A stretch of 64,000 nucleotides of DNA, from positions 15,560,578 to 15,624,577 of the forward strand of contig OZ025868.1 of assembly GCA_964019415.1 (NCBI GenBank). The letters run 5' to 3'. The DNA is from Ianthella basta. Lineage: Eukaryota > Porifera > Demospongiae > Verongiida > Ianthellidae. Numbering within the stretch: position 1 is the stretch's first letter; every line of letters begins with the position of its first letter. The position numbers and the translations under genes are program-made. The notes under the pieces were generated by a model. That model was not told the DNA's origin. It made no database searches and worked only from the letters and a program-made list of their open reading frames with translations. Positions 2,015 through 63,375 of this stretch are shown in pieces.

Positions 2015-5000
2015 TCACTTACTGCTCACTCCATACGTCTTTGCCAATTCCTCTGCCAGTTTCCTATCCTTCAATTTCCTCACTGCCTCCACCAATGTCT
2101 GCCATGTGCGAGGGAGATCACCACTTCCTTCATACTTGTCCACCCACTTGGTAACCAGGTCTAGCATGCAGTCAGTGACACTCTTGCTATTGTCACTCTG
2201 AATTGTGTCCATCAGTGAGGGCTCAAAACGAAGAAAAGTGCCAAAATGTCTCCACTTTGAATCAGCTTTCCCCCCAAGGGCCTCTATCACATCTGTCATA
2301 TAACACAACAATGTGAACATCTTATGATAACAACAAGTCACTGTATTCAATGTCCTTACCAGATGCATGGGTTACATCCTGTATACTGGTCACTTGTCCA
2401 CCAGCAGCTCCACCAGGTGGTGGGATATGCACAGCTGTGGAATGGAAGGAGGGATGTGTGAGGGGTCAAACACTTCAGCCATGTGCATACAGCTCAACAC
2501 ATTGAAAATTTACAAACTATTTTACTCCTGTATGCATTGAGACAAGTCAAGCCCCACTCTAGTGTGCACACACACTAGAGCAGAGCTTGCTTTTGTTGTT
2601 GGTCTTGTGGTATTAAACCTCACATTCAAAATTTACTATGGGCTAACACTTTTCAGCTGTTTAATATTCTGACGGAATCTCAAAGTTTACTATATTTATT
2701 ACTATATTTTGTGCTATAACTTAAAGAGGCACAATCAGGTTTAGCAAAGATCTTTAAAATTCAAATTAGTGGGTTCGCAGCTTTAACTTAATTATTAACA
2801 CATACTGCATTACTAGTGGGTAACAAAGTAGTGGACAGTCATGACAGCAAGTATAATCTCTAAAAATTCGTCACCCATTGTGCCCAGAAATTTTGTCACT
2901 CGGTGGCAATTAGAATGGTAATGAACAAGATGGCCGAGGGTGATGAATATTTAGATTGTCACACTGAAACATTAGAGCAGATGGCAAAATCTTGGTGCGC
3001 TTTGTTAGGGGCGTTTCTTAATGAAATGGCAGATTTTGAACTCACTGTTGGGACAATCATTCGAGGCTAACATGCTCACACAGACTCCTGGACGCTGACG
3101 ACCACCTGCGAGAACATGCCAATAAATGCATCAGGCACACTGTAGCCATGTAAGGAGACGGAGATGATGTACTTGGGCACCCTCCAAAAGAATAGAGCAA
3201 TGAGCGGCTGTCTACTGAGGAGAAATATCTGACACAATTTGTGTTTGGTGAAATATTCGAGTAATGCGACGAATATTGGAATACTTAAAATTTGTCAGAA
3301 ATTAGAATACATTTGGACAGGCTTTTCAGGGGTGGCGAAAATATATAGTGCCAAATTTTTAGAGAGAATACGGTAGGTATGGACTATTTCATCCCCGCTT
3401 CACAAAAGGAGAAGACACTCCACACAGCTCACCTTCACTGAAGTGTGGACTCCTCTCTGTGGCAACTGCTCCTCCACTCACAACTGGAGCAGAACTGGAG
3501 ACAGGTCTGAAGGGACCACTCACAGCTACCGTCTGAGAGGAGGAGGTGGAGGTAACACAAACACTAGCACACATGACAGGAGAGCTACACTTGCCTCCTC
3601 CAGACAGCACACCACACAGCACCTTCACTCAACACACAACACCGCACACTTACCTGGTGAGCTCCTCCCACTTCTGATACAATATTGCCTCTGAGCTTAA
3701 CCATAGTGCATTCTACTTCAGAGTGGCCCAAGGCATCCAACAGGGTCTTCCAGGTCACACTGCTACCGTGCTCCAACCAGTAGCTCAGGGTCTCCAGATA
3801 TCGATTGTCGTCATTCGGGAATTGTTGCCCAAGACCATCGAGTGTGTTCTTCTTCATGCCAAGAGCCAGTCCAACTCTCTTCCAGTGTCTCACTTGGATG
3901 TAAGGTAGGACAAGTGTGACTACATCCCCATGGTCAGGACGCTGGCCCAAGACCTGCTCCTTTATAGTCTGTCCACCAAGGATACTCAAGAAAACCTCCT
4001 TAACCTCCTGTCCCCCTACGTTCAACTTACACACACTGCTCAGCACATTATAAGCAGACATGAGGCCAGTAGAATGCTTACTGAGGACGTCAGGAGGTAT
4101 ATTTGCCCACACTCCTGGACGTCCACCTGCCCCCTCAATCAATGCAGCTATGTCGTGGAGTTCAAACTGCCGAGCTAGGTCAAGAGGACTTAGACCATTT
4201 GGGAAGTTTTCATTGACTGTTTCCTTCAACACAGGGTGGGACAACAGCTTGGTAACGAATAAGGTGTGGTCCGTGGTACCATTTCGAATGCCACCTATGG
4301 CAAACCCCATTTCAAAGCATTTCAATGACAGCAGCGACAACTGCAAAGGATACAAGGCAATGTCATCTGGTATACCAAGCTGGTTTAAGAAGGTAACACC
4401 TTCACCTATACAGAAATAGTATTTGGCACTTTTCATAGCTGCTGGCATGGCACAGACTTCAGAGGTAACTAGTTCACTGAACTGGTCTTCCAAGAATACA
4501 CTGTCTCCAGATATGGCACACAAACACAGCACTTTGTGTGCATCAACCAGACCACTAGCGATCAAGGTTGCCAAAGTACCCCTCAGCCCTTCTCCACTGC
4601 TCCCAATGCCACATGCCTCACAGAACTGGCTCAGTTTGCTGGCATGACCACCAACAAAGCAGTGCTCAAGTGTAGACACAGAATGAGTGTCTCTGTCAGT
4701 GATAGCTCCACCTTTCACTGCATTCACATCACACCCTCTGCCTACCAACACCTTAAATACTTCTACATGACCACCATAAGCTGCAGAATGCAGAACAGTC
4801 TCCCCATAACTGTCCACTACATCAATAAAACACCCTTGCGCCAACATGGCCTCAACAGTCTGCACATGTCCAAAAAGGGCTGCTTGATGAAGTGGAGTAC
4901 CACAATTACCAGCAACCACTGACTTGGTTGCACCAAGTCTGATTAGTTCACCAACTGCTTCTGTTCTACCACAAGCAGCAGCAGAGTGGAGGGGAGTACA

Positions 5001-7025
5001 GCCATTTGCTTTCACTGCATTCACATCACACTCTCTGTCTACCAACACTTTAATTACTTCAACATGGCCACCTTGAGCTGCAAAATGCAGAACAGTCTCC
5101 CCATCACTGTTCACTACATCAATAGCACACCCCTCTACCAACATAGCTTCAACAGTCTCCACATGTCCAAAAAGGGCTGCTTGATGAAGTGGAGTACCAC
5201 AATTACCAGCAACCACTGACTTGGTTGCATCAAGTCTGATTAGTTCACCAACTGCGTCTGTTCTACCATGACCAGCAGCACCATGGAGGGGAGTACAGCC
5301 ATTTGCTTTCACTGCATTCACATCACACCCTCTGTCTACCAACACTTTAATTACTTCAACATGGCCACCTTCAGCTGCAAAATGCAGAACAGTCGCACCA
5401 TTACTGTCCACTACATCAATAAAACACCCCTCTACCAACATAGCTTCAACAGTCTCCACATGTCCCTCAAGGGCTGCTTGATGAAGTGGAGTCCCATATT
5501 CACCAGCAACCACTGACTTGGTTGCATCAAGTCTGATTAGTTCACCAACTGCGTCTGTTCTACCATGACCAGCAGCACCATGGAGGGGAGTACAGCCATT
5601 TGCTTTCACTGCATTCACATCACACCCTCTGTCTACCAACACTTTAATTACTTCAACATGGCCACCTTCAGCTGCAAAATGCAGAACAGTCGCACCATTA
5701 CTGTCCACTACATCAATAAAACACCCCTCTACCAACATAGCTTCAACAGTCTCCACATGTCCAAAAAGGGCTGCTTGATGAAGTGGAGTACCACAATTAC
5801 CAGCAACCACTGACTTGGTTGCACCAAGTCTGATTAGTTCACCAACTGCTTCTGTTCTACCATGACCAGCAGCATCATGGAGGGGAGTACAGCCATTTGC
5901 TTTCACTGCATTCACATCACACCCTCTGTCTACCAACACTTTAATTACTTCAACATGGCCACCTGAAGCTGCAAAATGCAGAACAGTCGCACCATTACTG
6001 TCCACTACATTAATAGCACACCCCTCTACCAACATAGCTTCAACAGTCTCCACATGTCCAAAAAGGGCTGCTTGATGAAGTGGAGTACCACAATTACCAG
6101 CAACCACTGACTTGGTTGCATCAAGTCTGATTAGTTCATCAACTGCTTCTGTTCTACCACAACCAGCAGCATCATGGAGGGGAGTACAGCCATTTGCTTC
6201 CACTGCATTCACATCACACCCTCTGTCTACCAACACTTTAATTACTTCAACATGGCCACCTGAAGCTGCAAAATGCAGAACAGTCTTTCCAATACTGTCC
6301 ACTACATCAATAGGACACCCTTCCGCCAACATGGCTTCAACAGTCTCCACATGTCCACTAAGGGCTGCTTGATGAAGTGGAGTACCAAAATTACCAGCAA
6401 CCACTGACTTGGTTGCACCAACTCTGATTAGTTCACAGACTGCTTCTGTTCTACCAGAACCAGCAGCATCATGGAGGGGAGTACGGCCATCTGCTTCCAC
6501 TGCATTCACATCACACCTTCTGCCTACCAACACCTTAATTACTTCAACATGGCCACCTTCAGCTGCCCAATGCAGAACAGTCGCACCATTACTGTCCACT
6601 ACATCAATAGGACACCCTTCCGCCAACATGGCCTCAACAGTCTCCACATGTCCCTTAAGGGCTGCTTGATGAAGTGGAGTCCCACAATCACCAGCAACCA
6701 CTGACTTGGTGGCTGCCATTCTAATTAGTTCCCGAACTGCCTTTGTCTGTCCCATTGCAGCAGCCCAGTGCAGTGGAGTGAGCCCCCTACCATCAACTGA
6801 GTCTACATCACATCCCCTCCTGATGAGAAGCCTCATTGTGGTCACATGACCACCCTCTGCTGCCCAATGCAATAAACACTTCCCCTCATCATCCTTAGTG
6901 TCAATTGGGACACCTCTGTCTAACAGGTCTACAACAGTTTCTGTGTCACCAGTTCTGATAGCTCTAATTAATGCACATTTGCTGAAAGCCAATTGCAGAG
7001 CAGCTGCAGCAGGTGACTGGTCCAT
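2015..7025 (-). CDS. ANK gene 1: 23 ankyrin repeats plus two DEATH domains
   Basis: Four exons are proposed: 7025-3654, 3532-3433, 2434-2360 and 2292-2015. All have GT-AG junctions (donors GTAAGT, GTGAGC, GTAAGG) and give about 1274 aa. Residues about 20-780 form 23 ankyrin repeats (G.TPLH.AA..GH..). Repeats 4-21 are six near-identical 99-residue triplets. Residues 785-1030 are a conserved middle region of unknown fold. Residues about 1035-1115 form a DEATH domain (RHWKRVGLALGMKK ... TWKTLLDALGH). Exon 2 is an S/P-rich linker, exon 3 a G/P-rich linker. Exon 4 is a second DEATH domain (KWRHFGTFLRFEPS ... RTWQTLVEAV). Exons 3 and 4 join in phase 1. The start is chosen because MDQSPAA is shared by all four genes. 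A strong donor (GTAAGT at 2022-2017) just before the stop could extend the gene. A cytosolic adaptor or receptor is the likely role; the ligand is unknown. Confidence 0.85.
2854..3373. mobile_element. TA-flanked MITE with a 51-codon ORF (degraded copy)
   Basis: This is the homologue of the clean element at 36611-37132. The left end reads taatctctaaaaattcgtcac and the right end gtgccaaatttttagagaga, a decayed inverted repeat. It lies inside the intron between exons 2 and 3 of ANK gene 1. A 51-codon frame (2915-3070, plus strand) is shared with the other copy without indels. Confidence 0.75.
4683..6662 (-). repeat. Tandem 297-bp (99-aa) ankyrin triplet array inside ANK gene 1
   Basis: The ankyrin coding DNA repeats every 297 bp, three 33-residue repeats at a time. 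Neighbouring units around 5270-5860 are almost identical at DNA level, which indicates recent unequal crossing-over or gene conversion. The three repeat types are G..GTPLHQAA, S.G.TVLH.AA and A.G.TPLH.AA. Confidence 0.9.
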
Positions 7026-17248: not shown

Positions 17249-19838
17249 CTAATACAAACCTCCTTCTCGTAGTTTCCTTAGCATGAAGGCAGCAAACTTG
17301 TTCATCTTTTTGTAGCTTGTCTTCTCAGAAGCAATTCTGAACACTTCTGTCACTGTTTCCTCATCTGCATCCTCTTTGAGATAGTTCAAGAGGACAGCGT
17401 TACCTTCCTCCCTACTCTTTGACCTATGGATGTCACTCTCAACACTCTCTGGAACTAGCTCCAATGCTCTCAGCTCAGCTGCAATTGCTTTGCAGTTCAT
17501 TTCTTTGAGAAACCTCTCAGCATGTTTCTGAACAACCTGCGCAAGTGTGGCTGAACCACAAGAGAGATGTAAGTGGTGAAGCAGCCAGTAATGCATGCGT
17601 GAGACCTAGGTAGGCTTGAACAAATAATAGTATGCTGGTCAGAGCCTGAACCACACACAATCCAGTGCACAGTCCGAGCTAGTACAAGGCCCCAACACAC
17701 CTTAGAGGATAGTCATGAGGGAAAGAAGTACGGAGACACTCCACACAGCTCACCTTCACAGACGGGTGGACTCCTCTCTGTAGCAAATGCTCCTCCACTC
17801 ACAGCTGGAGCAGAACTGGAGACAGGTCTGAAGGGACCACTCACAGCTACCGTCTGAGAAGAGGAGGTGGAGGCAGCACAAACACTAGCACACATGACGA
17901 GAGCAGCACTTGCCTCCTCCAGACAGCGCACCACACAGCACCTTCACTCAACACACACCACTGCACACTTACCTGGTGAGCTCCTCCCACTTCTGATACA
18001 ATATTGCCTCTGAGCTTAACCATAGTGCATTCTACTTCAGAGTGGCCCAAGGCATCCAACAGGGTCTTCCAGGTCACACTGCTACCGTGCTCCAACCAGT
18101 AGCTCAGGGTCTCCATATATCGATCATCGTCATTTGGGAATTGTTGCCCAAGACCATCGAGTGTGCTCTTCTTCATGCCAAGAGCCAGTCCAACTCTCTT
18201 CCAGTGTCTCCCTTGGATGTAAGGTAGGACAAGTGTGACTACATCCCCATGGTCAGGACGCTGGCCCAAGACCTGCTCCTTTATAGTCTGTCCACCAAGG
18301 ATACTCAAGAAAACCTCCTTAACCTCCTGTCCCCCTACGTTCAACTTACACACACTGCTCAGCACATTATAAGCAGACATGAGGCCAGTAGAATGCTTAC
18401 TGAGGACGTCAGGAGGTATATTTGCCCACACTCCTGGACCTCCACCCGCCCCCTCAATCAATGCAGCTATGTCATGGAGTTCAAACTGCCGAGCTAGGTC
18501 AAGAGGACTTAGACCATTTGGGAAGTTTTCATTGATTGTTTCCTTAAACACAGGGTGGGACAACAGCTTGGTAATGAATAAGGTGTGGTCCGTGGTACCA
18601 TTTCGAATGCCACCTATGACAAACCCCATTTCAAAGCATTTCAATGACAGCAGCGACAACTGTAAAGGATACAAGGCAATGTCATCTGGTATACCAAGCT
18701 GGTTTAAGAAGGTAACACCTCCACCTTCACCGAAATAGTATTTGGCACTTTTCATAGCTGCTGGCATGGCACAGGCTTCAGAGGTAACTAGTTCACTGAA
18801 CTGGTCTTCCAAGAATACACTGTCTCCAGATATGGCACACAAACACAGCACTTTGTGTGCATCAACCAGACCACTAGTGATCAAGGTTGCTAAAGCACCC
18901 CTCAGCCCTTCTCTACTGCTCTCAATGCTACATGCCTCACAGAACTGGCTCAGCTTGCTGGCATGACCGCCAACAAAGCATTGCTCAAGTGTAGACACCG
19001 AATGAGTGTCTCTGTCAGTGATACCTTTCACTGCATTCACATCACATCCTCTGCCTACCAACACCTTAAACACTTCCACATGACCACCTACAGCTGCAGA
19101 ATGCAGAACAGTCGCACCATTACTGTTCACTACATCAATAGGACACCCTTCCGCCAACATGGCCTCAACAGTCTCCACATGTCCCTTAAGGGCTGCTTGA
19201 TGAAGTGGAGTCCCAATATTACCAGCAACCACTGACTTGGTTGCACCTAGTTTGATCAGTTTACAAACTGCTTCTGTTCTACCACAACCAGCAGCATCAT
19301 GGAGGGGAGTACAGCCATCTACTGAAACTGCATTCACATCACACCCTCTGCCTACCAACACCTTAATTACTTCAACATGACCACCTTGAGCTGCAAAATG
19401 CAGAACAGTCGCACCATTACTGTCCACTACATCAATAGGACACCCTTCTACCGACATAGCTTCAACAGTCTCCACATGTCCATTAAGGGCTGCTTGATGA
19501 AGTGGAGTCCCACAATTACCAGCAACCACTGATTTAGTTGCTCCCATTCGAATCAGCTCTCGAACTGCCTTTGTCTGTCCCATTGCAGCAGCCCAGTGCA
19601 GTGGAGTGAGCCCACTACCATCAACTGAGTCTACATCACATCCCCTCCTGATGAGAAGCCTCATTGTGGTCACATGACCACCCTCTGCTGCCCAATGCAA
19701 TAAAGACTCCCCTTCATCAACAACTCTGTATAACAGGTATACAGCTGTTACAATTGTGACAGCCAAGGTTACTAAAGCTGTGTAAAAGATCCATATAATA
19801 TTCACTAGTAGAGCAGTTGCAGCAGGTGACTGGTCCAT
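17249..19838 (-). CDS. ANK gene 2: membrane helix, 7 ankyrin repeats, DEATH, CARD-like
   Basis: Exons 19838-17973, 17853-17754 and 17550-17249 join with GT-AG sites in phases 0 and 1, giving about 755 aa. Residues 9-38 (LLVNIIWIFYTALVTLAVTI...) are hydrophobic and replace the first ankyrin repeat of the other genes, predicting a membrane anchor. Ankyrin repeats run to about residue 270, then the conserved middle region. A DEATH domain (RHWKRVGLALGMKK ... TWKTLLDALGH) ends exon 1. Exon 2 is the S/P linker. Exon 3 (VVQKHAERFLKEMN ... SREEGNAVLLNYLKEDADEE) looks like a CARD or other death-fold helix bundle; the exact class is uncertain. It ends EGGLY with a TAG stop. Its paralogue is gene 4. Confidence 0.82.
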
Positions 19839-23675: not shown

Positions 23676-25130
23676 TGTTTACGGACACGACCACATTGAC
23701 AGAGCTGGGGATTGAGCATGACGACCACAAAACATAACCCCCTTAACACTAATTTAATAGACGGCCCTAAACAAAGTTGTTGTAGAGGTGACCAAAGCCA
23801 AGCTGTTGTAGAGGTGACAGTAGCTATAAGTTGTTGGGGTTGTCACAGGATACTTCCAATTACGTCATTGTACCATATTAGAGTTATACCTGCAAAGTCA
23901 GTTGATCCAATTTCTCTTCCACTGTCACACTGAAAAGGAGCACGAGATTTCACCTTTTGCTATCAATACAATATGAAGTTTATAGGACGTTCTGTGGACA
24001 CTGCATGGCTGAGATACAGCCCACAGCGGCTGATAATTGGCAGGCTACATACGAATTGCAGCAATCTGACTCAGATAGCTACAATGCTTTGAATTCAATC
24101 CCTCTGGGGAGCAAATCTGCCAAGTAGCTATATATGTAACGCTAGTCACTCCCACACGAGATGTGTTCAGTTGTAAGGTCCACTGTCTGTGAGGTGGTGT
24201 GAATGAACTTCGCAGTGCTATAGGGCGCCGTGATGGGGTTCCTATCCCAGCCCAGGTCCACCAACTCGTCACTCGTCCCCCAACACCCATCGCCACGACA
24301 CACTTACCCAGCTCACCTTCAACTGATCCACTGTCTATGGCTAGCTGAGCGCGAGGGCGCAAGGTCGAACACCACTTTCAGCGGAGACTGTGTTGCGATC
24401 AGATTACACCGTCGCTCGTTCTATCACGTCTTCGCGTGCACAAAGAAGATGGACCTAGAAGTAGCTCTATTGCATTCAGTCATACACCAAAACGTAAGAC
24501 GCAAAAGACCGCTCTGTCCTCAGTAGCAAAGAGATCTGTTTCAATAGGTGTCCTTCGCCCTTCAGGCGCCCCACCCAGTTGTCTTCTGACGTCACTCTCC
24601 AAATTAGGAGATCTGCTCACGTGCACACTTGATCCCATGCATGCAATTTATATTGGATTTGGACATGTTTTAAGCTAATTTCATTACAACTGTGTGACTA
24701 TACCACATAGGGTTTCTATGCATATTATATATATATAGCTAGCTAGTCCTGACTGAGTTTGTGCTTTCTCTCAATAGTGACCACAGTATTGGAAATACAA
24801 TAGACTTAACTAAGCACATAGCTACAAGAATCAATCAATGTACTTGTCCAACACTTTATTCACACAATCAAGAGAAAGCGCAAAGCTTAAGTCAATCGGG
24901 ACTAGAAGCCCTAGAACCACTAAAGATATCTCCTCAACCATACACATAGTATGTCCAGCTGACTGCTATAAAGAAAGGTGGTTGAGATGGCTAGCTAAAA
25001 GTGTCTCCGACCACATGAGACATGTGATGAGTGTGCAGTCTCATTAGTGAGATGATGCAGAATGTGTGCAGTGTCTTGGCTGTCTTCTTCTCTGTCTCTC
25101 AAATACCTGCTCACAACTGACAGTGGACCT
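23676..25130. other. Duplicated spacer, no gene supported
   Basis: It matches 53666-55115. It contains the CRE plus CArG pair (24587-24608) and a GC-rich gagcgcgagggcgcaagg segment. Minus frames around 24050-24360 differ in frame between copies and are not called. Confidence 0.45.
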
Positions 25131-25134
25131 ACAG

Positions 25135-25641
25135 TTAACAGGAGCAGAGGGGTGGGGCAATATGAGCAGGGAGGGGTGGGGCAATAGGAGCAGGGAGGGG
25201 CGGGGCAATATGAGCAGAGAGGGGTGGGGCAATAGGAGCAGGGAGGGGTGGGGCAATATGAGCAGGGAGGGGTGGGGCAATATGAGCAGGGAGAGGTGGG
25301 GCAATATGAGCAGGGAGGGGTGGGGCAATATGAGCAGGGAGGGGTGGGGCAATATGAGTAGGGAGGGGTGGGGCAATATGAGCAGGGAGGGGTGGGGCAA
25401 TATGAGCAGGGAGGGGTGGGGCATAGTGAGCAGGGAGGGGTGGGGCAATATGAGCAGGGAGAGGTGGGGCAATATGAGCAGGGAGGGGTGGGGTAATATG
25501 AGCAGGGAGGGGTGGGGCAATATGAGCAGGGAGGGGTGGGGCAATATGAGCAGGGAGGGGTGGGACAATATGAGCAGGGAGGGGTGGGGCAATATGAGCA
25601 GGGAGGGGTGGGGCAATATGAGCAGGGAGGGGTGGGGCAAT
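25135..25641. repeat. G-rich minisatellite, 24-bp unit, about 21 copies
   Basis: The unit is gagcagggaggggtggggcaatat with few variants. As the unit is 8 codons, all six frames stay open, giving false ORFs (MSREGWGN on plus, LLILPHPS on minus). Runs of GGG/GGGG every few bases suit G-quadruplex formation. The partner array is at 55118-55954 with about 35 units. Confidence 0.97.
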
Positions 25642-25852
25642 TGATGGTGTAATGTATACTTATTCATAGTAAGATTACATCAGAAAGGGTTGGTTCTCTA
25701 ATACCAGCTTCACAACAGGGTTGAAAACCTTGCCGACATTTCGACCAGATGCTCTGGTCTTCTTCTTTGCCCTGAGCCAGCTGAGAAGCCCTCACTTCAA
25801 GATTACACTATACTACACACACTGCAAGTTAATACTAGCAATTGTTACTGCA

Positions 25853-25941: not shown

Positions 25942-27225
25942 GCATGTGGGTTATGGCACCTATGTAAACAATGTGGCTTCGCGCGGCCAATTTTTTACCT
26001 TCGTATTCTCCCTTCTTTCTCCTAGAGTTAAGACCAGAACAAGCTAAGCTATACATGAAACTGTAGCTGTGACAGTTTCCTAGACGGAGAATCGCGGCCG
26101 AGGACAGTACATCTAAAAGCGCACTCAATCGCTGTGTAGGAGTCGGTGGAGAGACTGAGAGCGGATTACAGGGCATAGAACAGTACGCAGTCACACGATC
26201 TAACTTTTCCATGTGTCCGCAGTTGAAAAACGAATCCATTGGAGAGTTATGTTGGGAAAACCACTTTCCTTCTTCGCGGTCGAAGCTTTCGCACATAATA
26301 ACTCACGATAGAAAACTGGTATCAAAAGCGGACACATGGAAAAGTTAGAAAACATCTTTACCATCACACCTCTACCTTCGTTGTGAAACATTCGGCTGTT
26401 CTGACGTCCCACACGGCGGTTTACCGAAGAAACCCATTTTGCCTCCTCCAACAGCTAGAGTCACATGATGCTCTCGTGACTTCCTGTCTCAGTGGGTAGG
26501 CGTAACATACGTCAACGAAATGGCGACCGTGGGATACTCAACTTACCGTGATGTCTTGCGCCGCGCGTGGCCTACTTCGTTTTCCATATATACAAGAAAT
26601 GGACTTCTGCTTACCTGCTCCGGTATCTAACTTGTCGTTTCGCCTCTACGTCTTGTACCAGATGTTACATTCCTAGACGATGGCGTGACGTAATCAATTG
26701 AGGCAGCCCTGGCACGCGCACATCACGCGGTGTCACATGCGTAACTAGGGTAACGTAGAAGAATGCGCTGAAACCGCACGGTCCAAGCTTGTGTAAACAA
26801 AGCTGCCATAACCCACATGCGACACACACACACACACACACACACTCCCCCCAATACAGTAGCAATGTCATATGAACAGCTCAACATAGCCCATCATAAC
26901 ACGTATGTGCTTGGCCACTTACTGTAAACAGAACATACATACATCTACATATAGGCCATGACAATAAGGCTATGTCTAAGGGCTTGTACAGAGCTTCACT
27001 GCCAGATACTGCAATCACTGATGGCATACCAGCTGTATACACTGAGTGTGATGGCCCCATCTTCCCCCTCACCCTCACCCTTCCCCTCACACAGCCTCTT
27101 TGATACTGATTGAGTTTAGTGTAGCTGTGTTATGGCTCAAGACGACCAGTGATGATCTCTTCTAACTACACAAGTGAGGACGGGAGGGAGGTAGACACTG
27201 AGCAACCAACACATGCACAAGTACT
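25941..27225. other. CpG-richer single-copy stretch, possible promoter region
   Basis: From about 26080 to 26800 CG dinucleotides are commoner than in neighbouring DNA. Two candidate first-exon signals are seen. On the plus strand there is an ATG at 26520 (MATVGYSTYRDVLRR...) that stops without clear splicing. On the minus strand an MGFFGKPP start near 26433 runs about 20 codons to a GTAGAG donor-like site. A minus donor (gagcaggtaagc) lies near 26617-26628. A short CA run is at 26821-26845. None is strong enough to call as a gene. Confidence 0.3.
26201..26347. repeat. 20-bp perfect inverted repeat, 107-bp loop
   Basis: taacttttccatgtgtccgc at 26201-26220 and its exact reverse complement at 26328-26347. 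No flanking TA duplication is evident. It could be a small palindromic element or a stem-loop. Confidence 0.75.
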
Positions 27226-27227
27226 AT

Positions 27228-27716
27228 GACACTGTACACCTCTCACTGTACGCCTCTCACTGTACACCTCTCACTGTTCACCTCTCACTGTACACCTCTC
27301 ACTGTACACCTCTCACTGTACACCTCTCACTGTACGCCTCTCACTGTACACCCCTCACTCCACACCTCTCACTGTACGCCTCTCACTGTACGCCTCTCAC
27401 TGTACGCCTCTCACTGTACGCCTCTCACTGTACACCTCTCACTGTACACCTCTCACTGTACACCTCTCACTGTACACCTCTCACAGTACACCTCTCATTG
27501 TACACCTCTCACAGTACGCCTCTCACTGTATGCCTCTCACTGTACGCCTGTCACTGTACGCCTCTCACTGTACGCCTTTCACTGTACACCTCTCACTGTA
27601 CACCTCTCACTGTACACCTCTCACTGTTCACCTCTCACTGTACACCTTCCACTGTACACCTCTCACTGTACACCTCTCACTGTTCACCTCTCACTGTACA
27701 CCTTCCACTGTGGTTT
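27228..27716. repeat. Minisatellite, 15-bp unit, about 32 copies
   Basis: The unit is ctctcactgtacacc with variants (tgtacgcc, tgttcacc). Long frames in all three plus registers (SLYTSHCTPLTVH) follow from the unit length of five codons and are not genes. Confidence 0.95.
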
Positions 27717-27904
27717 ATAGGGTACATAATTATTAGCTAAACTCTCAAGATCGTGTGCATGCACACACACACAGTTCATTACCTTATTAAGGAAGTGTGT
27801 CTTCAAACTGTCAAACCACAGAAATTAATATAACTTCCAGATCCCCCAGTCTGTGTATTGCTTCGCTGCTGCTCACACGCACTCACAATGCATGCATTAC
27901 TCAG

Positions 27905-28899: not shown

Positions 28900-29088
<189 letters not shown>

Positions 29089-33130: not shown

Positions 33131-36061
33131 CTACTCATAGCCCTTCTTCTTGGAATGCTTCTGAGAAGGTTCCTTTTGGCCCTTTCGGCATCTCCCATCT
33201 GACTGTCTGCTGTCACTCCCTGATTTCCCCTTCATTGGTCTTTCTTCATGTGGTAAAGGTTGCCCATGTGACCTACCTCCAGGCTTAGGCCGTGACTTCC
33301 GTGAATCACTCGCAGTCTCCATGAATCTCCATGTAAACTGATCTTCTGTCATACGCACTGTTTGTGGTCCCACACGGTGGTAAGCATGACCGTCTACTTT
33401 AACACCTTCTTTGCATGGTTTCACGACAATGTCAAAACGCCACCGACCAGTTAGCTGGTTGTTGTCATACCTGAGGTTGACTGGTTCAACTTGTGCTTTT
33501 GATGACTCAACTGGAGGCCAGAAGCTATTCAGTATGTCACCAACCTTCTTTCTCAGCTCATCTATTGCACGGTTCTGCTTAAGGTTAAGCCCCTCCTCTA
33601 CAATGCCATCATCTCCTATACCAAAATGTATGCAGCCTCCAGTGCGGATGTTCAGCATAGCATTAATTGCCTTTCTGTAAGTAGCTTTATTCACCCGCTC
33701 ATGAAGGCCTCGCAAGGTGCTCAAGGGTTGACTCACACCATCAACGTACTCCATGAGCGACTTGTACTCGTGGTCATCTCTCTCTGCCCCAACATCAGCA
33801 CCAACAATAGCTGCATTGGGATGCCACAAAGGCTGCTGGAGACAACTGGAAAGCACACTCTTGATGAACCAAAAGCCATGCTCACTATCCTCAGCAATAG
33901 CCTTGATAGAAGCATAAGCCTCTTTCAATCGTGGCAGTGCTAGAGGATGCTTAACTTCTATTTCCTGTGGTATGCCAGACCACACTCCTGGACGTCCACC
34001 TGTCCCCTCAATCAAATCAGCTATTTTGGGGAGTTCAAACTGCCGAGCTAGGTCAAGCAGACTTAGACCATTTGGGTACGGTTCATTGACTGTTCCCTTC
34101 AACACAGGGTGGGACAACAGCTTGGTGATGAATGAAGTGTGGTTGTTAGTACCCTTTTGGTTAAAAGAGTCAGCGAAATCCATTCTGAAGCATTTCAATG
34201 ACAGCAGTGATATGTGCAATGGGCTTAAGGAATCCCCATCCAGTAAATGGAGCTGGTCAATGAAGGGAACACCTTCACCACGGTGGAAATAATGCTTGGC
34301 CCATCTCACTGCTGCAGGCATTAAACATTCATCAGAAGCAACTAACTCAATGAATTGTTCTTCCAGGAATACACTGTCTCCAGAAAAGGCACACAAACAC
34401 AGCACTTTGTGTGCATCAACCAGACCCTTAGTGATCAAGGTTGCTAAAGCACCCCTCAGCCCTTCTCCACTGCTCCCAATGCCACATGCCTCACAGAACT
34501 GGCTCAGTTTGCTGGCATGACCACCAACAAAGCACTGCTCAAGTGTAGACAAAGAATGAGTGTCTTTGTCAGTGATAGCCCCACCTTTGGAGGTCAGCAA
34601 TTTGAACACCTCCACCTGTCCACCCTGTGCAGCATACATGACAGGAGTCTCACCAACTGAATCACAAACACTAATGAGATTACTGTCAATTTGTATTTGC
34701 GAGGATGCTACATTAATTGTGCTCAAATCAGGTTCATAAGTGTCATCCTCCAAAAGGACTTCAACAGTCTCCACATGTCCTGCAAAGGCTGCTTGATGAA
34801 GCGGAGTCCCAAAATTACCAGCAATCACTGACTTGGTTGCACCAAGTCTGATCAGTTCACGAACTGCTTCTGTTCTACCACAAGCAGCAGCAAAGTGGAG
34901 GGGAGTCCAGCCGTTTGCTTTCACTGCATTCATATCACACCCTCTGCTTACCAACACCTTAATTACTTCGACATTGCCACCTGCAGCTGCACAATGCAGA
35001 ACAGTCTTCCCGTTACTGTCCATTACATCAATAGGACACCCTTCCGCCAACATGGCTTCAACAGTCTCCATATGTCCACTAAGGGTTGCTTGATGAAGTG
35101 GAGTCCCACAATTACCAGCAACCACTGACTTGCTTGCACCAAGTCTGATCAGTTCACGAACTGTTTCTGTTCTACCACAACCAGCAGCAAAGTGGAGGGG
35201 AGTACTGCCATTTGCATCCACTGCATTCACATCACACCCTCTGTCTACCAACACCCTCATTACTTCAACTTGACCACATTGAGCTGCACAATGCAGAACA
35301 GTCCCTCCAATGCTGTCCACTACATCAATAGGGCACCCTTCCGCCAACATGGCTTCAACAGTCTCCACATGTCCACTAAGGGTTGCTTGATGAAGTGGAG
35401 TACCAAAATTACCAGCAAACACTGACTTGGTTGCACCAAGTTTGATCAGTTCATGAACTGCTTCTGTTCTACCCCAACAGGCAGCATCATGGAGGGGAGT
35501 ACAGCCATTTGCATCCACTGCATTCACATCACACCCTCTGTCTACCGACACCTTAATTACTTCGACATGGCCACCTTCAGCTGCAGAATGCAAAGTAGTC
35601 TTCCCACTATTACTTCTCACTTCATCAATAGCACACCCTTCTTCCAACATGGCCTCAACAGTCTCCACATGTCCACTAATGGCTGCTTGATGAAGTGGAG
35701 TACCATACACTATAGCAACCATTGACTTGGTGGCTCCCATTCTAATCAGCCCTCGAACTGCCTTTGTCTGTCCCATTGCAGCAGCCCAGTGCAGTGGAGT
35801 GAGCCCTCTACCATCAACTGAGTCTACATCACATCCCCTCCTGATGAGAAGCCTCATTGTGGTCACATGACCACCCGATGCTGCCCAATGCAATAAGGAA
35901 TTCCCCTCACCATCCTTAGTGTCAATTGGGACACCTGACAGGTCTAACAGGTCTACAACAGTTTCTGTGTCCCCTCTTCTGACAGCTGAAATTACTGCCC
36001 GTATATTATACACCAATTTCAGAGCCACCTTTATAGCAGCTGCAGCAGGTGACTGGTCCAT
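33131..36061 (-). CDS. ANK gene 3: 14 ankyrin repeats plus Schlafen/AlbA_2-type domain
   Basis: A single open exon of 976 aa starts MDQSPAAAA like its paralogues. Ankyrin repeats occupy residues about 25-520, the last two diverged. The conserved middle region (CFVGGHASKLSQFCEACGIG ... PLDLARQFEL) runs to about 680. The DEATH domain of genes 1, 2 and 4 is absent. Residues about 785-930 (RKAINAMLNIRTGGCIHFGI then DDGIVEEGL, FWPPVE, RWRFDIVVKP, GPQTVRM) match the AlbA_2 fold of Schlafen-like proteins (pattern I.AMLN..GG.I.FGI.D.G). The last about 50 residues are K/R/S-rich. AlbA_2 domains bind or cleave nucleic acid in known Schlafens; activity here is inferred. No intron is needed. Confidence 0.85.
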   Translation of the reverse strand: MDQSPAAAAIKVALKLVYNIRAVISAVRRGDTETVVDLLDLSGVPIDTKDGEGNSLLHWAASGGHVTTMRLLIRRGCDVDSVDGRGLTPLHWAAAMGQTKAVRGLIRMGATKSMVAIVYGTPLHQAAISGHVETVEAMLEEGCAIDEVRSNSGKTTLHSAAEGGHVEVIKVSVDRGCDVNAVDANGCTPLHDAACWGRTEAVHELIKLGATKSVFAGNFGTPLHQATLSGHVETVEAMLAEGCPIDVVDSIGGTVLHCAAQCGQVEVMRVLVDRGCDVNAVDANGSTPLHFAAGCGRTETVRELIRLGASKSVVAGNCGTPLHQATLSGHMETVEAMLAEGCPIDVMDSNGKTVLHCAAAGGNVEVIKVLVSRGCDMNAVKANGWTPLHFAAACGRTEAVRELIRLGATKSVIAGNFGTPLHQAAFAGHVETVEVLLEDDTYEPDLSTINVASSQIQIDSNLISVCDSVGETPVMYAAQGGQVEVFKLLTSKGGAITDKDTHSLSTLEQCFVGGHASKLSQFCEACGIGSSGEGLRGALATLITKGLVDAHKVLCLCAFSGDSVFLEEQFIELVASDECLMPAAVRWAKHYFHRGEGVPFIDQLHLLDGDSLSPLHISLLSLKCFRMDFADSFNQKGTNNHTSFITKLLSHPVLKGTVNEPYPNGLSLLDLARQFELPKIADLIEGTGGRPGVWSGIPQEIEVKHPLALPRLKEAYASIKAIAEDSEHGFWFIKSVLSSCLQQPLWHPNAAIVGADVGAERDDHEYKSLMEYVDGVSQPLSTLRGLHERVNKATYRKAINAMLNIRTGGCIHFGIGDDGIVEEGLNLKQNRAIDELRKKVGDILNSFWPPVESSKAQVEPVNLRYDNNQLTGRWRFDIVVKPCKEGVKVDGHAYHRVGPQTVRMTEDQFTWRFMETASDSRKSRPKPGGRSHGQPLPHEERPMKGKSGSDSRQSDGRCRKGQKEPSQKHSKKKGYE

Positions 36062-45369: not shown

Positions 45370-48300
45370 CTAGTGGTATAAAACAATAGTAGCATGGTAC
45401 CATAGAAAGATGGCAGAATAGTGACAATGACTGAAGCGCTTGCTTGCTGGATTTAGGAAGCCATGCCAGCTAAGTCCAATGTACACCAGTGTACCCGACA
45501 GTGTCTTACACCATACGTATATCCGTGTGTACAGAATACACCAATACAAACCTCCTTCTCGTAGTTTCCTTAGCATGAAGGCAGCAAACTTGTTCATCTT
45601 TTTGTAGCTTGTCTTCTCAGAAGCAATTCTGAACACTTCTGTCACCGTTTCCTCATCTGCATCCTCTTTGAGATAGTTCAAGAGGACGGTGTTACCTTCC
45701 TCCCTACTCTTTGAACAATGGATGTCACTCTCAACACTCTCTGGAACTAGCTCCAATGTTCTCAGCTCAGCTGCAATTGCTTTGCAGTTCATTTCTTTGA
45801 GAAACCTCTCAGCATGTTTCTGAACAACCTGCACAAGTGTGGCTGAACCACAAGAGAGATGTAAGTGGTGAAGCAGCCAGTAAAGCATGCGTGAGACCTA
45901 GGTAGGCCTGAACAAATAATAGTATGCTGGTCAGAGCCTGAACCACACACAATCCAGTGCACAGTCCGAGCTAGTACAAGGCCCCAACACACCTTAGAGG
46001 ATAGTCATGAGGGCACGAAGTGTAGAGACACTCCACACAACTCACCTTCACAGACAGGTGGACTCTTCTCTGTAGCAACTGCTCCTCCACTCACATCTGG
46101 AGCAGAAGTGGGGACACTCACAGCCTCTACACTTCTTCCACTATCAGTCAAGTCACATCCAGCTACTGTCTTAGCTGGTGGATGGTCTTGAGTGTCACCC
46201 TCTGGGGACCGCTTCCTCTGCCAAGGCACACCTGGAGGATGAGCAACAATTGGAGGTGATGACACATTACTTGGGCAAATAGATCACCAACTGAACACAG
46301 TCCTTGTACCTTCTTCATCTGATGTTCTCCTCCGCTTTGCCAATGGCCAACTCAGCTCTGCTGTCCTCTCAATGTGAACAAGAGACCTTGAGGAGCTGGC
46401 CAGCTGGGGAGAGACCTGAGAGCATACAGGAAACAAGACAGATACAGAGGAAGGGAGGGGATTAGAGGGGAGGAAGAGGGGAAAAAAGGAAGAATAGAGG
46501 AGACAGAACAACACAAGCACACGTGACAGGAGAGCAACACTTGCCTCCTCCAGACAGCACACCACACAGCACCTTCACTCAACACACAACACTGCACACT
46601 TACCTGGTGAGCTCCTCCCAGTTCTGATACAATCTTGTCCACTAGTCCATCAATAGTGTGTTTAGTCTCAGAGTGGCCCAAGACATCCAACAGGGTCTTC
46701 CAGGTCACACTGCTACCGTGCTCCAACCAGTAGCTCAGGGTCTCCAGATACTGATCATCGTCATTCGAGAATTGTTGCCCAAGACCATCGAGTGTGCTTT
46801 TCTTCATGCCAAGAGCCAGTCCAACTCTCTTCCAGTGTCTCACTTGGATGTGAGGTAGGACATGTGTGACTACATCCCCAAGGTCAGGACGCTGGCCCAA
46901 GACCTGCTCCTTCACCAACTGACTGTCATCGACTTGTACTGTATCGTCCATTTGCCTACCAAAGACGCCAAAAAACAAGCTCTCTATGAATTTACGGCCA
47001 TCTTCACTCTCTGAAACAATATTCCTCATTTCTGGAAAAGCCTCAAGCACTTTAACCAGCCCTGCATGATGCTTAACCACAATACTCTGTGGTATGCTGG
47101 GACACAATAGACCACTTGCTTCCTCATATGCAGCTATGTTGACCTGGACAGACAGGTTGGCTTCATGACCGAACAAGCTGTTTTCTTCATTGCAGCGAAT
47201 AAACAGTGAGGGCCTGGACAGCTGGAGGGAGGCCTGAGAGGAGAAAAGGGAGAAAAAAGAAGAGAATTAAGAGAGGAAGAAGGAGTCAGCACACAAGCAC
47301 ACGTCACAGGAGAGCAACACTTGCCTCCTCCAGACTGCACACCACACAGCACCTTCACTCAACACACAACACTGCACACTTACCTGGTGAGCTCCTCCTA
47401 GTTCTGATACAATTTTCATGTCTGTCCAGTCCCGTTTATTCAACAATTGACTCCCTTCAGCTGCAAGTATAGTACAGTCCACAGACTTCCTCACACTAGC
47501 TGCATTGGAACCATCCTGCTCCTCCACCAACTGTTCACCAAGGAGTTTTATCACAGCCAACCTCACATTCTCATGACAACCTTGGCTGGGATCAAACACC
47601 GCAATTAGCGATTCATAAATCATGAACCGCTCATTAGGATACCTAAAAAACACATCTTGTGGTATGTCAGCCCACACTCCTGGACGTCCACCCGCCCCCT
47701 CAATCAATGCAGCTATGTCATGGAGTTCAAACTGCTGAGCCAGGTCAAGAGGACTTAGACCATTTGGGTAGCATTCATTGACCGATTCCTTTAACACAGG
47801 GTGGGACAACAGCTTGGTGATGAATGATTTGTGGTCGTTACTACCCATTTGAATTGAAAACTGAGCAAATCCCAAAGTAAAGCATTTCATTGATAGCAGT
47901 GAAATGTGCAATGGGTTCAATGCATTCTCATCTGGTATACTGAGCTGGTTAATAAATGAAATACCTTCACCTCTGCAGAAATAGTACTTGGCAAATTTCA
48001 CAGCTCCAGGCATGGCACAAGCATCAGAAGCAACTAATTCAATGAACTGGTCTTCTAGGAATACACTGTCTCCAGAAATGGCACACAAACACAGCACTTT
48101 CTTCGCATCAATCAGACCCTTAGTGATCAAGGTTGCTAAAGTATCCCTCAGCCCTTCTCCACTGCTCCCAATGCCACATGCCTCACAGAACTGGCTCAGT
48201 TTGCTGGCATGACCACCAACAAAGCAGTGCTCAAGTGTAGACAAAGAATGAGTGTCTCTGTCAGTGATAGCCCCACCTTTGGAAGTCAACAATTTAAAGA

Positions 48301-49441
48301 CTTCCACCTGTCCATACCTTACTGCCCACATAACAGGAGTTTGTCCAAATGAATTACAAGTGTTAATGACACTACGTTGAGCTAACTCTGGTTTTGAAGG
48401 TATAGTGCCATGATTGGCCAAATCAGATTCACAAATTTCTTCCTCTAACAAGACTTGAACTGTCTCTGTATGTCCATTTGCTACTGCTTGATGCAAAGGT
48501 GTACCATACATTCCAGCAACCACTGACTTGGTTGCACCTGATGAAAGTAGCTTACAAACTGCTTGTGTTTCGCCACTAGCAGCAGCATCATGGAGGGGAG
48601 TACAGCCATCAGCATCTGGTGCATTCACATCACACCCTCTGTCAACTAACTCCCTCACTGTTTCAACACAACCACCTTCAGCTGCAGAATGCAGAACTGT
48701 GGACTTATTGCTATCCACTACATTAATTAGACACTCCTTCTCTAACATGGCCACAACAGTCTCCACATGTCCATTAAGGGCTGCTTGATGAAGTGGAGTC
48801 CCATACTCCCCAGCAACCATTGACGTGGTTGTACCAAGTCTGATTAGTTCACGAACTGCTTCTGTTCTACCATCAGCAGCAGCATCATGGAGGGGAGTAC
48901 AACCTTCTGCATCTCTTGCATTCACATCACACCCTCTGTCTACCAACTTCCTCACTACTTCAACATAGCCTTCTTCAGCTACATAATGCAGAACAGTAGA
49001 CCCATCACAGTCCACTACATCAATAGGACACCCTTCCGCCAACATGGCTTCAACAGTCTCCAAATGTCCCTTACTGGCTGCTTGATGAAGTGGAGTCCCA
49101 TACTCTCCAGCAACCTCTGACTTGGTTGCTCCCATTCGAATCAGTTCTCGAACTGCCTTTGTCTGTCCCATTGCAGCAGCCCAGTGCAGTGGAGTGAGCC
49201 CTCTACCATCAACTGAGTCTACATCACATCCCCTCCTGATGAGAAGCCTCATTGTGGTCACATGACCACCCTCTGCTGCCCAATGCAATAAGGAATTCCC
49301 CTCATCATCCTTAGTGTCAATTGGGACACCTCTGTCTAACAGGTCTACAACAGTTTCTGTGTCACCAGTTCTGACAGCTCTAATTAATGCACGTTTGTTG
49401 ACAGCCAATCGCTGAGCAGCTGCAGCAGGTGATTGGTCCAT
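45370..49441 (-). CDS. ANK gene 4: 11 ankyrin repeats, DEATH, CARD-like, stop-loss tail
   Basis: Proposed exons are 49441-47384, 47233-46604, 46403-46310, 46231-46046 and 45842-45370 (GT-AG throughout; phases 0,0,1,1), about 1146 aa. Residues 20-400 hold 11 ankyrin repeats, then the conserved middle region. Unlike genes 1 and 2 the first exon has no complete DEATH domain. Exon 2 encodes a linker (ASLQLSRPSLFIRCNEENSL...) and the DEATH domain (RHWKRVGLALGMKK ... TWKTLLDVLGH). Exons 3 and 4 are K/R- and S/P-rich linkers, one with a possible nuclear-localisation-like PLAKRRR. Exon 5 is the CARD-like module shared with gene 2. The gene 2 stop codon is TGG here (45541-45543), adding about 43 residues. 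A splice at ggag/gtttgt could avoid this tail. Confidence 0.78.
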
Positions 49442-54598: not shown

Positions 54599-55117
54599 AG
54601 ATCTGCTCACGTGCACTCTTGATGCCATGCATGCAATTTATATTGGATTTGGACATGTTCTAAGCTGATTTCATTACAACTATGTGATTATACCACCATT
54701 TAGGGGTTCTATGCACATGTAGCTAGTCCCAACTGAGTTTGTGCTTCTCTCAATAGCGAGCACAGTATTGGAAATACAATAGACTTAGCTAAGCACATAG
54801 CTACAGGAATCAATGTACTTGTCCAACACTTTATTCACACAATCAAGAGAAAGTGCAAAGCTCAAGTCAATCGGGACTAGAAGCCCTAAAACCACTAAAG
54901 ATATCTCCTCAAGCATACACATAGTATGTCCAGCTGACTGCTATAAAGAAAGGTGGTTGAGATGGCTAGCTAAAAGTGTCTCCGACCACATGAGACATGT
55001 GATGAGTGTGCAGTCTCGTTAGTGAGGTGATGCAGAATGTGTGCAGTGTCTTGGCTGTCTTCTTCTGTGACTGTCTCTCAAATACCTGCTCACAACTGGC
55101 AGTGGACCTACAGTTAA

Positions 55118-55954
55118 CAGGAGCAGGGAGGGGTGGGGCAATATGAGCAGGGAGGGGTGGGGCAATATGAGTAGGGAGGGGTGGGGCAATAGGAGCAGGA
55201 AGGGGTGGGGCAATATGAGCAGGGAGGGGTGGGGCAATATGAGCAGGAAGGGGTGGGGCAATATGAGTAGGGAGGGGTGGGGCAATATGAGTAGGGAGGG
55301 GTGGGGCAATATGAGCAGGGAGGGGTGGGGCAATATGAGCAGGGAGTGGTGGGGCAAAATGAGCAGGGAGGGGTGGGGCAATATGAGCAGGGAGTGGTGG
55401 GGCAAAATGAGCAGGGAGGGGTGGGGCAAAATGAGCAGGGAGGGGTGGGGCAATATGAGCAGGGAGGGGTGGGGCAATGTGAGCAGGGAGGGGTGGGGCA
55501 ATGTGAGCAGGGAGGGGTGGGGCAATATGAGTAGGGAGGGGTGGGGCAATATGAGCAGGGAGGGTGGGGCAATATGAGCAGGGAGGGGTGGGGCAATGTG
55601 AGCAGGGAGGGGTAGGGCAATATGAGCAGGGAGGGTGGGGCAATATGAGCAGGGAGGGGTGGGGCAATGTGAGCATGGAGGGGTGGGGCAATGTGAGCAG
55701 GGAGGGGCGGGGCAATATGAGCAGGGAGGGTGGGGCAATATGAGCAGGGAGGGGTGGGGCAATATGAGCAGGGAGGGGTGGGGCAATATGAGCAGGGAGG
55801 GGTGGGACAATATGAGCAGGGAGGGGTGGGGCAATATGAGCAGGGAGGGGTGGGGCAATATGAGCAGGGAGGGGAGGGGCAATATAAGCAGGGAGGGGTG
55901 GGGCAATATGAGCAGGGAGGGGTGGGGCAATATGAGCAGGAAGGGGTGGGGCAG
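55118..55954. repeat. G-rich minisatellite, 24-bp unit, about 35 copies
   Basis: Same unit as 25135-25641 but about 14 units longer. Some units lack one G (gggagggtggggc), which breaks the eight-codon frame. This shows that the long frames on both strands are a by-product. Confidence 0.97.
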
Positions 55955-55993
55955 TGGATGGTATAATGTAAAATTACTCATAGTAAGATTGCA

Positions 55994-58285: not shown

Positions 58286-58474
<189 letters not shown>

Positions 58475-60735: not shown

Positions 60736-60737
<2 letters not shown>

Positions 60738-60831: not shown

Positions 60832-60833
<2 letters not shown>

Positions 60834-61150: not shown

Positions 61151-61151
61151 G

Positions 61152-61240
<89 letters not shown>
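61151..61240. repeat. (CA)n microsatellite
   Basis: A CA run with a few CG variants near the left. Confidence 0.97.
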
Positions 61241-61242
<2 letters not shown>

Positions 61243-61790: not shown

Positions 61791-61880
61791 TCTCCTTAAG
61801 GCTACAGTCATACAAGACCTGTTCTTCAGAATTTAAAGTATGACATTGTAGACTTGTACTTGGAACGTAGACATTCATGT

Positions 61881-63375
61881 TCACTTAAATAGGTTAGGGT
61901 TCACAGCAGGAGGAGGGCAGAGATACCGGTCAACCACACCTCTTATCACCAAGGCGATAGAATGCAGAGTGGCAACCTGCTGGCGAACATCGTCACCCAC
62001 TTCTTCTGTTTCCTTCCCAAAGAAGTTAGTTTTTCCATCAGCACTTTTGTCCTGCCCACCATCAGAAACACCCTTTACTACAGCAAACTTGGGAATGGTT
62101 TGGTATCCTAGCTTCTGACACGAACCCAATGCCTTCATGAAGCCTACAGCCTCCATTTCTATACCAGCTCTGTATGCTACTCCACGGACGTCAGCTGCAT
62201 ACTCAGCTGATTTAACCACAAAGGGTCCTACCTCAAACCTGGGAACTTCCTTAATAGGAATGTCTTTGAATTTCTCACCGTCAGTACCTGGCTGTATTGT
62301 GGGATTTGTAATGTGGAGCTTTTGCAGGCGAGATATCCAATCTTGATCAGTTTTGTAGACCTCAGGGTGGTGCTGTATGTGACTGCCCTCGGTCATCTTG
62401 CCACGATTGAGGTAAGCTTCAAATTCACTGGTCAGGAGAACATGACCCATTGAGTTCCCTCCACTCTTGCCATCATCTGCAAAGCCGCAACACCCAACTG
62501 AAAACAGATCGCTTAGCTGCCGGCAGTGTCTATTAGCACACTCGAGCAGATCGGTTGTTGTGTCCAGTGCGCCACCTTCAGTGAAGGCAGCCTGCTGTCG
62601 GCACTTGACATGGACACCAATCACCTTCTCACTCCCACCCTTCTTTGTGAGAGTAAATGTTTCATAGTTATCATCTAAAACACCTTCATTCTTGACTGTC
62701 ACACCATTGATTTTGAGGTACGGATCATTCTCCCAGGTGCAGTCGCTGGCTCCATCCCAAATTGTACCAGTGGGTCCGAGCTGCAGGAAATGTCTCACCA
62801 TATTCTCCTCTGTTGGGTTGGCAGTGACAACAGCAAATACTGTGGGAGGGCCTGCAAGTAGGAAGTGCACACAGGAAACAGTAACATTGCAGGGTGTGCC
62901 AGAGATTCTATAAACAACCCTTACCTAGCTGAGTGCAATGTAACTAACGCCTGTTACCTTGACAACCAATGCACTTTATAGGATGTCAACTGACTGCCTA
63001 AGTGTTTGCAACAATCTCGCACCAACCAAAGCTAAGTGGACTAAACCTGAGACTCAAAACACAGTCCTCCAAACACACTATGTACATACCCCATGGTCAC
63101 ACATTCTGGCAAGTACACTGCAGTATGAATATACATCACTCTCACCTACACACAACAACTTGTACATAACAGGTGCAATAAACCATCCATTAGTACAGAC
63201 AGTGACCTAAATAGAAGCTGCCATCCCATCAAACTGCATCATATATAGAATTTCAGAACACAGAGGATCTGATTCACTACATGTCATTGCAGCACTGCAT
63301 GCTACATACCTTTTGCTCCCGCTTGGGTCTCTGTCCGAGCAGCACCACTGGTCTCACCAGATGGTTGGAAAGTTA
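61881..63375 (-). CDS. ANK-family-like gene 5, 3' part: nucleoside-phosphorylase-like domain
   Basis: Two exons are seen: 63375-63310 (66 bp, T/G/A-rich linker TFQPSGETSGAARTETQAGA) and 62851-61881. The junctions are GT-AG and phase 1. The last exon encodes a nucleoside phosphorylase superfamily (PNP/MTAN) fold: N-terminal FAVVTANPTEENMV, SVGCCGFADDGKSG, GIEMEAVGFM and FAVVKGVSDGGQDKS. The GIEMEAVGF and VSDGG motifs match the substrate Glu region and the catalytic-Asp loop of the family. It ends VNPNLFK at a stop. The upstream part lies beyond the window, so whether it carries ankyrin repeats is unknown. The phase-1 linker matches the C-terminal architecture of genes 1, 2 and 4. The reaction and substrate are not proven. 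Confidence 0.75.
62852..63309 (-). other. Intron of gene 5
   Basis: Bounded by donor GTATGT (63309 downward) and acceptor cttgcag (62852-62853). No conserved frame. Confidence 0.6.

Follow-up and report, generated by a model that had tools for sequence, protein, structure and literature searches.

Do the ankyrin genes that stand in tandem on one contig of the sponge Ianthella basta encode receptors that keep one sensor and exchange their tails? The window, meaning the whole 64,000-nucleotide stretch of DNA that was analysed (C1:15560578-15624577; contig OZ025868.1, here C1, of assembly GCA_964019415.1, a 209-Mb genome in 96 contigs), holds four such genes and the terminal exon of a fifth. An earlier note, made from the letters alone, had proposed a receptor family resembling the nucleotide-binding leucine-rich-repeat receptors (NLRs), built on a NACHT-free ankyrin scaffold with death-fold, AlbA_2 or nucleoside-phosphorylase-like (PNP) tails. 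On the analysis reported here, we think it rather probable that the genes encode tandemly expanded, probably intracellular, innate-immune sensors with exchangeable tails; the immune role is one that we infer for the ankyrin family.

Results

Genes 1 to 4, all on the minus strand, begin with MDQSPAA, carry ankyrin arrays of varying length (many Pfam ANK matches) and have in common a middle region some 210 residues long. Gene models and domain matches bear out the proposal that these four genes have a common start, array and middle and different ends. Gene 1 (1249 aa) is modelled as ankyrins, middle region, DEATH, linker and a second DEATH type (DEATH2), and gene 2 (755 aa) as ankyrins, middle region, DEATH, linker and a CARD-like module, both joined at predicted splice sites. 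Gene 3 is a single open frame of 976 aa with ankyrins, middle region and AlbA_2, without DEATH. In gene 4 the ankyrins and middle region are followed by DEATH (in the frame 47266-46355), extra linkers and a CARD-like module. Features are as follows (window positions, minus strand throughout).

3654-7025, minus: gene 1 exon with ankyrin array, middle region (4074-4703) and DEATH (3666-3962)
3433-3532, minus: gene 1 linker exon, phase 0 to 1 (predicted)
2015-2292, minus: gene 1 terminal exon with the second DEATH, phase-1 start (predicted)
17973-19838, minus: gene 2 exon with hydrophobic N-terminal segment, ankyrin array, middle region and DEATH
17754-17853, minus: gene 2 linker exon (predicted)
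17249-17550, minus: gene 2 CARD-like exon, phase-1 start (predicted; CARD identity weak)
33131-36061, minus: gene 3, one open frame with ankyrin array, middle region (33947-34576) and AlbA_2 (33311-33772)
32542-32961, minus: a further AlbA_2-like copy past the end of gene 3, either degenerate or split by an intron, with stops inside the match
47384-49441, minus: gene 4 exon with ankyrin array and middle region (47639-48268), a frame in which no DEATH was recognised
46604-47266, minus: next open frame of gene 4 with DEATH (46616-46912); the 3' end is a CAG/GTAAGT donor, the 5' end is not fixed
46046-46169, minus: gene 4 linker exon (predicted)
45370-45842, minus: gene 4 CARD-like exon, 3' end not fixed
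61881-62851, minus: gene 5 terminal exon with a nucleoside phosphorylase/nucleosidase-fold domain, phase-1 start read by eye; the exons that precede it lie beyond the window

The middle region was found at 124 genomic places, 74 of them close and full-length, and the domain combination is more than chance: it recurs in these 74 close copies. Same-strand tails up to 5 kb downstream were the first DEATH (66 copies), a further type, DEATH3 (26), CARD-like (15), AlbA_2 (10), DEATH2 (7) and PNP (4); 16 copies had the first DEATH alone and 2 had no tail, and no opposite-strand tail stood within 5 kb downstream of the 74 among the tallied rows. Rows used were 74/124 for the middle region, 76/111 for DEATH, 18/68 for the AlbA_2 query, 4/39 for PNP, 22/150 for CARD-like, 10/150 for DEATH2 and 37/150 for DEATH3. 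Excluded AlbA_2-query rows were linker-only matches, one AlbA_2 piece at C1:11949335, or located elsewhere; for CARD-like, DEATH2 and DEATH3 the best 150 of 644, 678 and 753 candidates, respectively, were scored. These three tails also occur away from the ankyrin family (more than 600 candidates in each search), and PNP is also present on contigs C3, C5, C6, C7 and C9. Distant copies on C7 and C22 have, after DEATH, three more DEATH-like matches in two open frames each.

A tree was made from 35 of the 74 middle regions (three carry a stop), including one mixed copy (DEATH, AlbA_2 and CARD-like) that entered the overall label count and was excluded from the count of AlbA_2 against DEATH. Its seven AlbA_2 genes require seven changes, at least five of them forced by well supported branches, and constraining them to a single origin was rejected (p 4e-122). 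Gene 3 groups among DEATH3 and PNP genes; another AlbA_2 gene (L013) stands beside genes 1 and 2. The tree thereby upholds the idea of one scaffold with exchangeable tails, and indicates that tails and scaffolds have reassorted and that AlbA_2 joined different scaffold lineages more than once. AlbA_2 labels were no more clustered than shuffled ones; tail labels as a whole required 17 changes against a shuffled mean of 23.0, and descent is therefore recorded as well as exchange.

How firmly each tail is joined to the ankyrins differs. The objection that C-terminal exons may not splice to ankyrin exons cannot apply to AlbA_2, because that tail sits in the same single open frame as the ankyrins. 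The first DEATH of genes 1 and 2 likewise shares the open frame of the array and middle region. For the DEATH2, CARD-like and PNP exons, the joins from the ankyrin-DEATH exon are predictions from splice sites and gene order. The large exon of genes 1 and 2 ends CAG/GTAAGT in phase 0; the linker exon after it, about 34 aa long, enters in phase 0 and leaves in phase 1, which is also a possible starting phase of the DEATH2 and CARD-like exons. DEATH2 has a phase-1 donor too, as gene 1 and a C10 copy show; with phase 1 at both ends this exon could be internal and symmetric. The phase-1 acceptor of the PNP exon was read by eye from the DNA, the scripted splice-site scan not having reached the window's copy. 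With that acceptor, the description of the fifth neighbour as a PNP-like domain on a phase-1 exon holds, with one correction: gene 5 also carries DEATH, on an upstream exon outside the window. Its ankyrin, middle-region and DEATH sequence lies at about +66.2 to +70.3 kb, beyond the window's right end, DEATH being about 3.4 kb ahead of the PNP exon; between the two lies a linker exon with homologues in genes 1, 2 and 4.

The tail of gene 3 has the AlbA_2 fold of SLFN/SAMD9 (31.0 bits against a Pfam cut-off of 25.3), and its nearest solved relatives are SAMD9 and Schlafens; no NCBIfam family matched the gene 3 piece. The FGI.D aspartate, kept in 11/13 copies, was aligned by program to SAMD9 FGVKD. 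HE[YF]K, present in 9/13 copies (2 rows lack that stretch), resembles SAMD9 HEFK/HEYK, the pairing being by eye with a spacing of 42-51 versus 41. Putative catalytic residues of human SAMD9 are given as E184, E196, E218 and D241 (PMC13245274), and the AlbA_2 copies have no clear counterpart of E184 or E218.

First DEATH modules scored 17.8, 21.4 and 22.0 bits in genes 1, 2 and 4, all below the Pfam Death cut-off of 22.6 bits, and the second DEATH of gene 1 scored 23.7 bits, above it. A joint DEATH profile matched the death domains of THOC1 (E 6e-5) and FADD (E 4e-4) in the PDB, and also those of RIPK1, Fas, ankyrin-2 and PIDD (E 0.1 or better); by sequence profile the modules belong to the death-domain superfamily. 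As to the CARD-like tails proposed for genes 2 and 4, the module is there in both genes and its identity as CARD is weak (sub-threshold Pfam CARD matches in 2/15 aligned copies, best E 0.003; no CARD matched in the PDB).

Alone, the PNP exon had no Pfam or NCBIfam match and found no relevant solved structure by sequence. It models as an MTA/AdoHcy (methylthioadenosine/S-adenosylhomocysteine) nucleosidase fold, and its assignment to the nucleoside phosphorylase/MTA-AdoHcy nucleosidase superfamily is by fold, from diverged copies and the structure model. G[IV]EME and KG[IV]SD are kept in 17/18 aligned copies; we take the ME signature and the SD aspartate to be catalytic residues. Program alignment to the nucleosidase (MTAN) was weak (E 0.35), and a profile comparison of the AlbA_2 alignment with that of PNP found no relation, as expected. 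Two stretches, C7:4370986-4375913 and C7:4390236-4395153, hold DEATH2 matches and, no more than 5 kb after them, diverged PNP matches; the middle region has no match near either stretch.

The middle region looks like degenerate ankyrin repeats. Its structure model (mean predicted local distance difference test score, pLDDT, 66; predicted template modelling score, pTM, 0.46) starts with two genuine, poorly modelled repeats, and the Foldseek matches listed for it, like many VIA-align rows, are filled by ankyrin repeats, RNase L ankyrin domains among them. Several ankyrin structural matches cover model residues 120-259, inside the middle region; on this model, of moderate confidence, they rule out a novel fold. 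SAMD9 chains were not among the 50 structural matches listed, which carries no weight either way. Ankyrin domains were present in 119/120 homologues listed for the gene 3 middle region plus tail, so the region does not come from unrelated housekeeping proteins; ankyrin and AlbA_2 occurred together in 22/120, on various contigs.

Individual genes show further peculiarities. In the first 40 residues of gene 2 a strongly hydrophobic stretch, possibly a membrane anchor, replaces the first ankyrin repeat (mean hydropathy over 19 residues 2.23; genes 1, 3 and 4 give 0.58 to 1.44 across their first 120 residues). Additional linker-like open frames in genes 4 and 5 (window 46350-45990; about +65.6 to +66.0 kb, locus L039) contain basic stretches, AKRRRTSDEEG for example, that may be nuclear localisation signals. 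The ankyrin array of gene 5 is broken across two frames (L039, about position 5700, minus strand), and a copy at C1:15477897 has a near-identical PNP exon and a long open frame around its middle region; the pair suggests that a segment was duplicated recently and one copy then decayed, or else a sequencing error.

Between the ankyrin genes lie three similar exon-like fragments of a SIK/MARK-type kinase (window 785-1048, 28900-29088 and 58286-58474, minus strand); a 45-residue fragment has SIK3 as its best PDB match (E 6.9e-16), and the Pfam kinase match is sub-threshold. The tandem unit seems to have taken a kinase gene, or what is left of one, along with it. Long minisatellite-like arrays, open in several frames, also separate the genes (window 24995-25679, 27195-27740 and 54966-55993).

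Comparison with known systems

No NACHT was recognised in the scanned exons, and none of the 102 NACHT matches scored in the genome, out of 469 candidates, lies on this contig, which agrees with the claim of a NACHT-free scaffold; NACHT matches are numerous on other contigs of the genome. Sponge NLRs are described as an expanded repertoire of NACHT-LRR proteins (LRR, leucine-rich repeat) with CARD or DEATH (PMC12909245). The present family shares with them expansion in a sponge, DEATH/CARD modules and a repeat-array sensor, but it has no recognised NACHT switch, ankyrins take the place of LRRs, and its death folds are C-terminal to the repeats. The term NLR-like is hence acceptable as analogy and not as membership, and judged by sequence the family stands beside, not inside, the NLR repertoire of this genome.

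Closest in principle is a massively expanded family of Amphimedon, the NCOA6-clade TRADD-N proteins, in which death folds are combined with ankyrins, kinases or enzymatic tails including a 'PNPase', and which have been read as immune (PMC8195603). We take this 'PNPase' for nucleoside phosphorylase, whose structure paper is cited there. As described, the Amphimedon proteins keep N-terminal Death-like and TRADD-N domains constant and vary the C-terminal part, ankyrins included, whereas in Ianthella the constant N-terminal part is the ankyrin array, AlbA_2 is fused directly and TRADD-N is not recognised (no Pfam match in the scanned exons, the profiles of PMC8195603 itself not having been applied; the middle region models as ankyrin-like helices). 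The Amphimedon expansion is thus an earlier sponge example of the principle and perhaps of the PNP tail. Different here are the inverted order on a constant ankyrin scaffold, the direct AlbA_2 fusion, the tree evidence for exchange and the lack of a recognised TRADD-N. No description of such an ankyrin-scaffold family was found in a non-exhaustive literature search judged by titles or abstract openings.

Gene 3 shares with SAMD9/SAMD9L and Schlafens an AlbA_2 domain of the same fold. Of the SAMD9 core (SIR2-like, P-loop NTPase, TPR and OB), none is among the credible Pfam matches of the complete 976-aa frame, which are ANK and AlbA_2 only; an ankyrin array stands in its place. SAMD9-family members of other animals are reported to be able to carry DEATH-superfamily domains (PMC12331169, PMC13245274, PMC5445408). 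With RNase L, gene 3 has in common the logic of an N-terminal ankyrin sensor and a C-terminal RNA-cutting domain; that domain is kinase-like plus KEN RNase in RNase L and, as a putative one, AlbA_2 in gene 3, where no kinase-like or KEN domain was recognised (one KEN-type exon is in the genome, on another contig). Four sponges examined are described as having OAS and no RNase L (PMC6307210), and marine sponges as containing 2',5'-oligonucleotides (PMC2852836). A search of the genome for OAS1_C gave no match, as did its control, and is hence uninformative. That the ankyrin-AlbA_2 protein is a sponge counterpart of RNase L, a receptor of 2',5'-oligoadenylates, would be speculation, unlikely on priors.

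PNP_UDP domains are reported in fungal NLRs and bacterial defence proteins (PMC10197012, PMC4986451), where nucleosidase-fold domains act in bacteria as ATP nucleosidases (PMC10197012), and in fungal PNP-STING (PMC12424679). The use of a nucleosidase/phosphorylase-fold domain as an effector would be common to these and to gene 5, but here the putative enzyme is C-terminal on a predicted animal ankyrin-DEATH protein. Some tails may also serve another scaffold in the sponge itself: at C10:2522677-2525897 (L066), a DEATH2 exon and an AlbA_2 match lie some kb downstream of a frame with a weak, sub-threshold match to COR-B (Roco; E 0.001).

Discussion

The simplest joint reading, which we hold to be probable, is a receptor family with two outputs: one is signalling by death folds, the other a direct block on translation or on the purine pool. 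In known families, ankyrin arrays are binders of proteins or small ligands, death folds assemble into polymers and draw in partners, and the AlbA_2 domains of SAMD9 and Schlafens cut RNA. The array would bind a microbial, viral or altered-self ligand, the proteins would oligomerise, and what follows would depend on the tail. A death fold would bring in adaptors and caspases or kinases; AlbA_2 would act like SAMD9 and cut RNA, tRNA being the most likely target; a nucleosidase would break down purine nucleosides or nucleotides, as such domains do in bacterial defence, for which ATP nucleosidases were reportedly described in an original report of 2023. Splice sites and gene order predict that the short linker exon leads to exchangeable phase-1 exons (further DEATH types, CARD-like and nucleosidase-fold). 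It is doubtful whether the ankyrin-AlbA_2 and ankyrin-DEATH-PNP proteins act directly, as NTPase-free receptor-effectors in which a ligand on the ankyrins alone triggers tRNA or purine-nucleotide cleavage in the same polypeptide; recombination of exons and of the tandem array would have swapped their effectors on a single scaffold.

Several points weigh against exchangeable-tail sensors. Candidate acceptors in other phases are also present, and no protein spanning DEATH and PNP was found among 94 matches. Gene conversion of the scaffold would yield the same tree picture as tail exchange. Nor is diversification of the ligand-facing surface significant: with ligand-contact and core positions assumed from designed ankyrins, and 341 distinct repeats of 391 found (34 of unclassified type left out), the ratio of nonsynonymous to synonymous diversity (piN/piS) at ligand-facing positions of three repeat classes was 0.89, 1.12 and 1.04 versus 0.72, 0.77 and 0.76 at other surface positions, a result matched by 19 to 33 percent of random 7-position non-core sets and by 4 to 35 percent of sets from all positions. 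Diversifying selection at these positions was dropped as evidence, random sets equalling it.

The undetected diversification also suits an ordinary ankyrin-DEATH scaffold or adaptor family for apoptosis and development, whose AlbA_2 and PNP tails would be by-products of duplication and recombination without selected function. The dominance of DEATH-only types among the tallied copies, the degenerate second AlbA_2 copies, and the split frames and stops in copies fit such a family as well. We nevertheless consider it unlikely: signature residues of AlbA_2 and of the nucleosidase are kept across divergent copies, AlbA_2 was attached more than once, and its combination with ankyrins recurs on various contigs in the homologues listed. 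Less likely still are receptors of allorecognition or symbiosis tolerance, in which a variable array would tell self from non-self tissue, or resident microbes from foreign ones, and death folds would deliver the output in zones of contact. Large tandem clusters, many similar copies and variable ankyrin number suit loci of that kind, but the first 120 residues of genes 1, 3 and 4 contain no hydrophobic stretch comparable to the one in gene 2, and a diversified ligand face is again not significant.

The CARD-like, DEATH2 and PNP terminal exons might, finally, be short genes in their own right, interspersed among the ankyrin genes. Their joins come from splice prediction and not from transcripts, the gap reaches 3.9 kb for PNP, all three occur away from the ankyrin family too, and ATG codons shortly upstream in the DEATH2 and CARD-like frames make own starts possible. 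This is nonetheless quite improbable, since 25 of 30 high-identity PNP, CARD-like and DEATH2 copies on the contig have a middle region no more than 8 kb upstream, with 25/25 on the strand of that region (tandem duplicates among the 30 not being independent), exon phases fit a common linker exon, and AlbA_2 is in one frame with the ankyrins.

If the sensor reading is true, an early-branching animal builds intracellular receptors as fungi and bacteria do, swapping adaptor and enzymatic effectors without a NACHT switch, and places RNA cutting of the SAMD9/Schlafen type and nucleosidase effectors on an ankyrin sensor. The family would then offer a concrete, expressible candidate for what acts downstream of nucleotide or RNA signals in sponges without RNase L.

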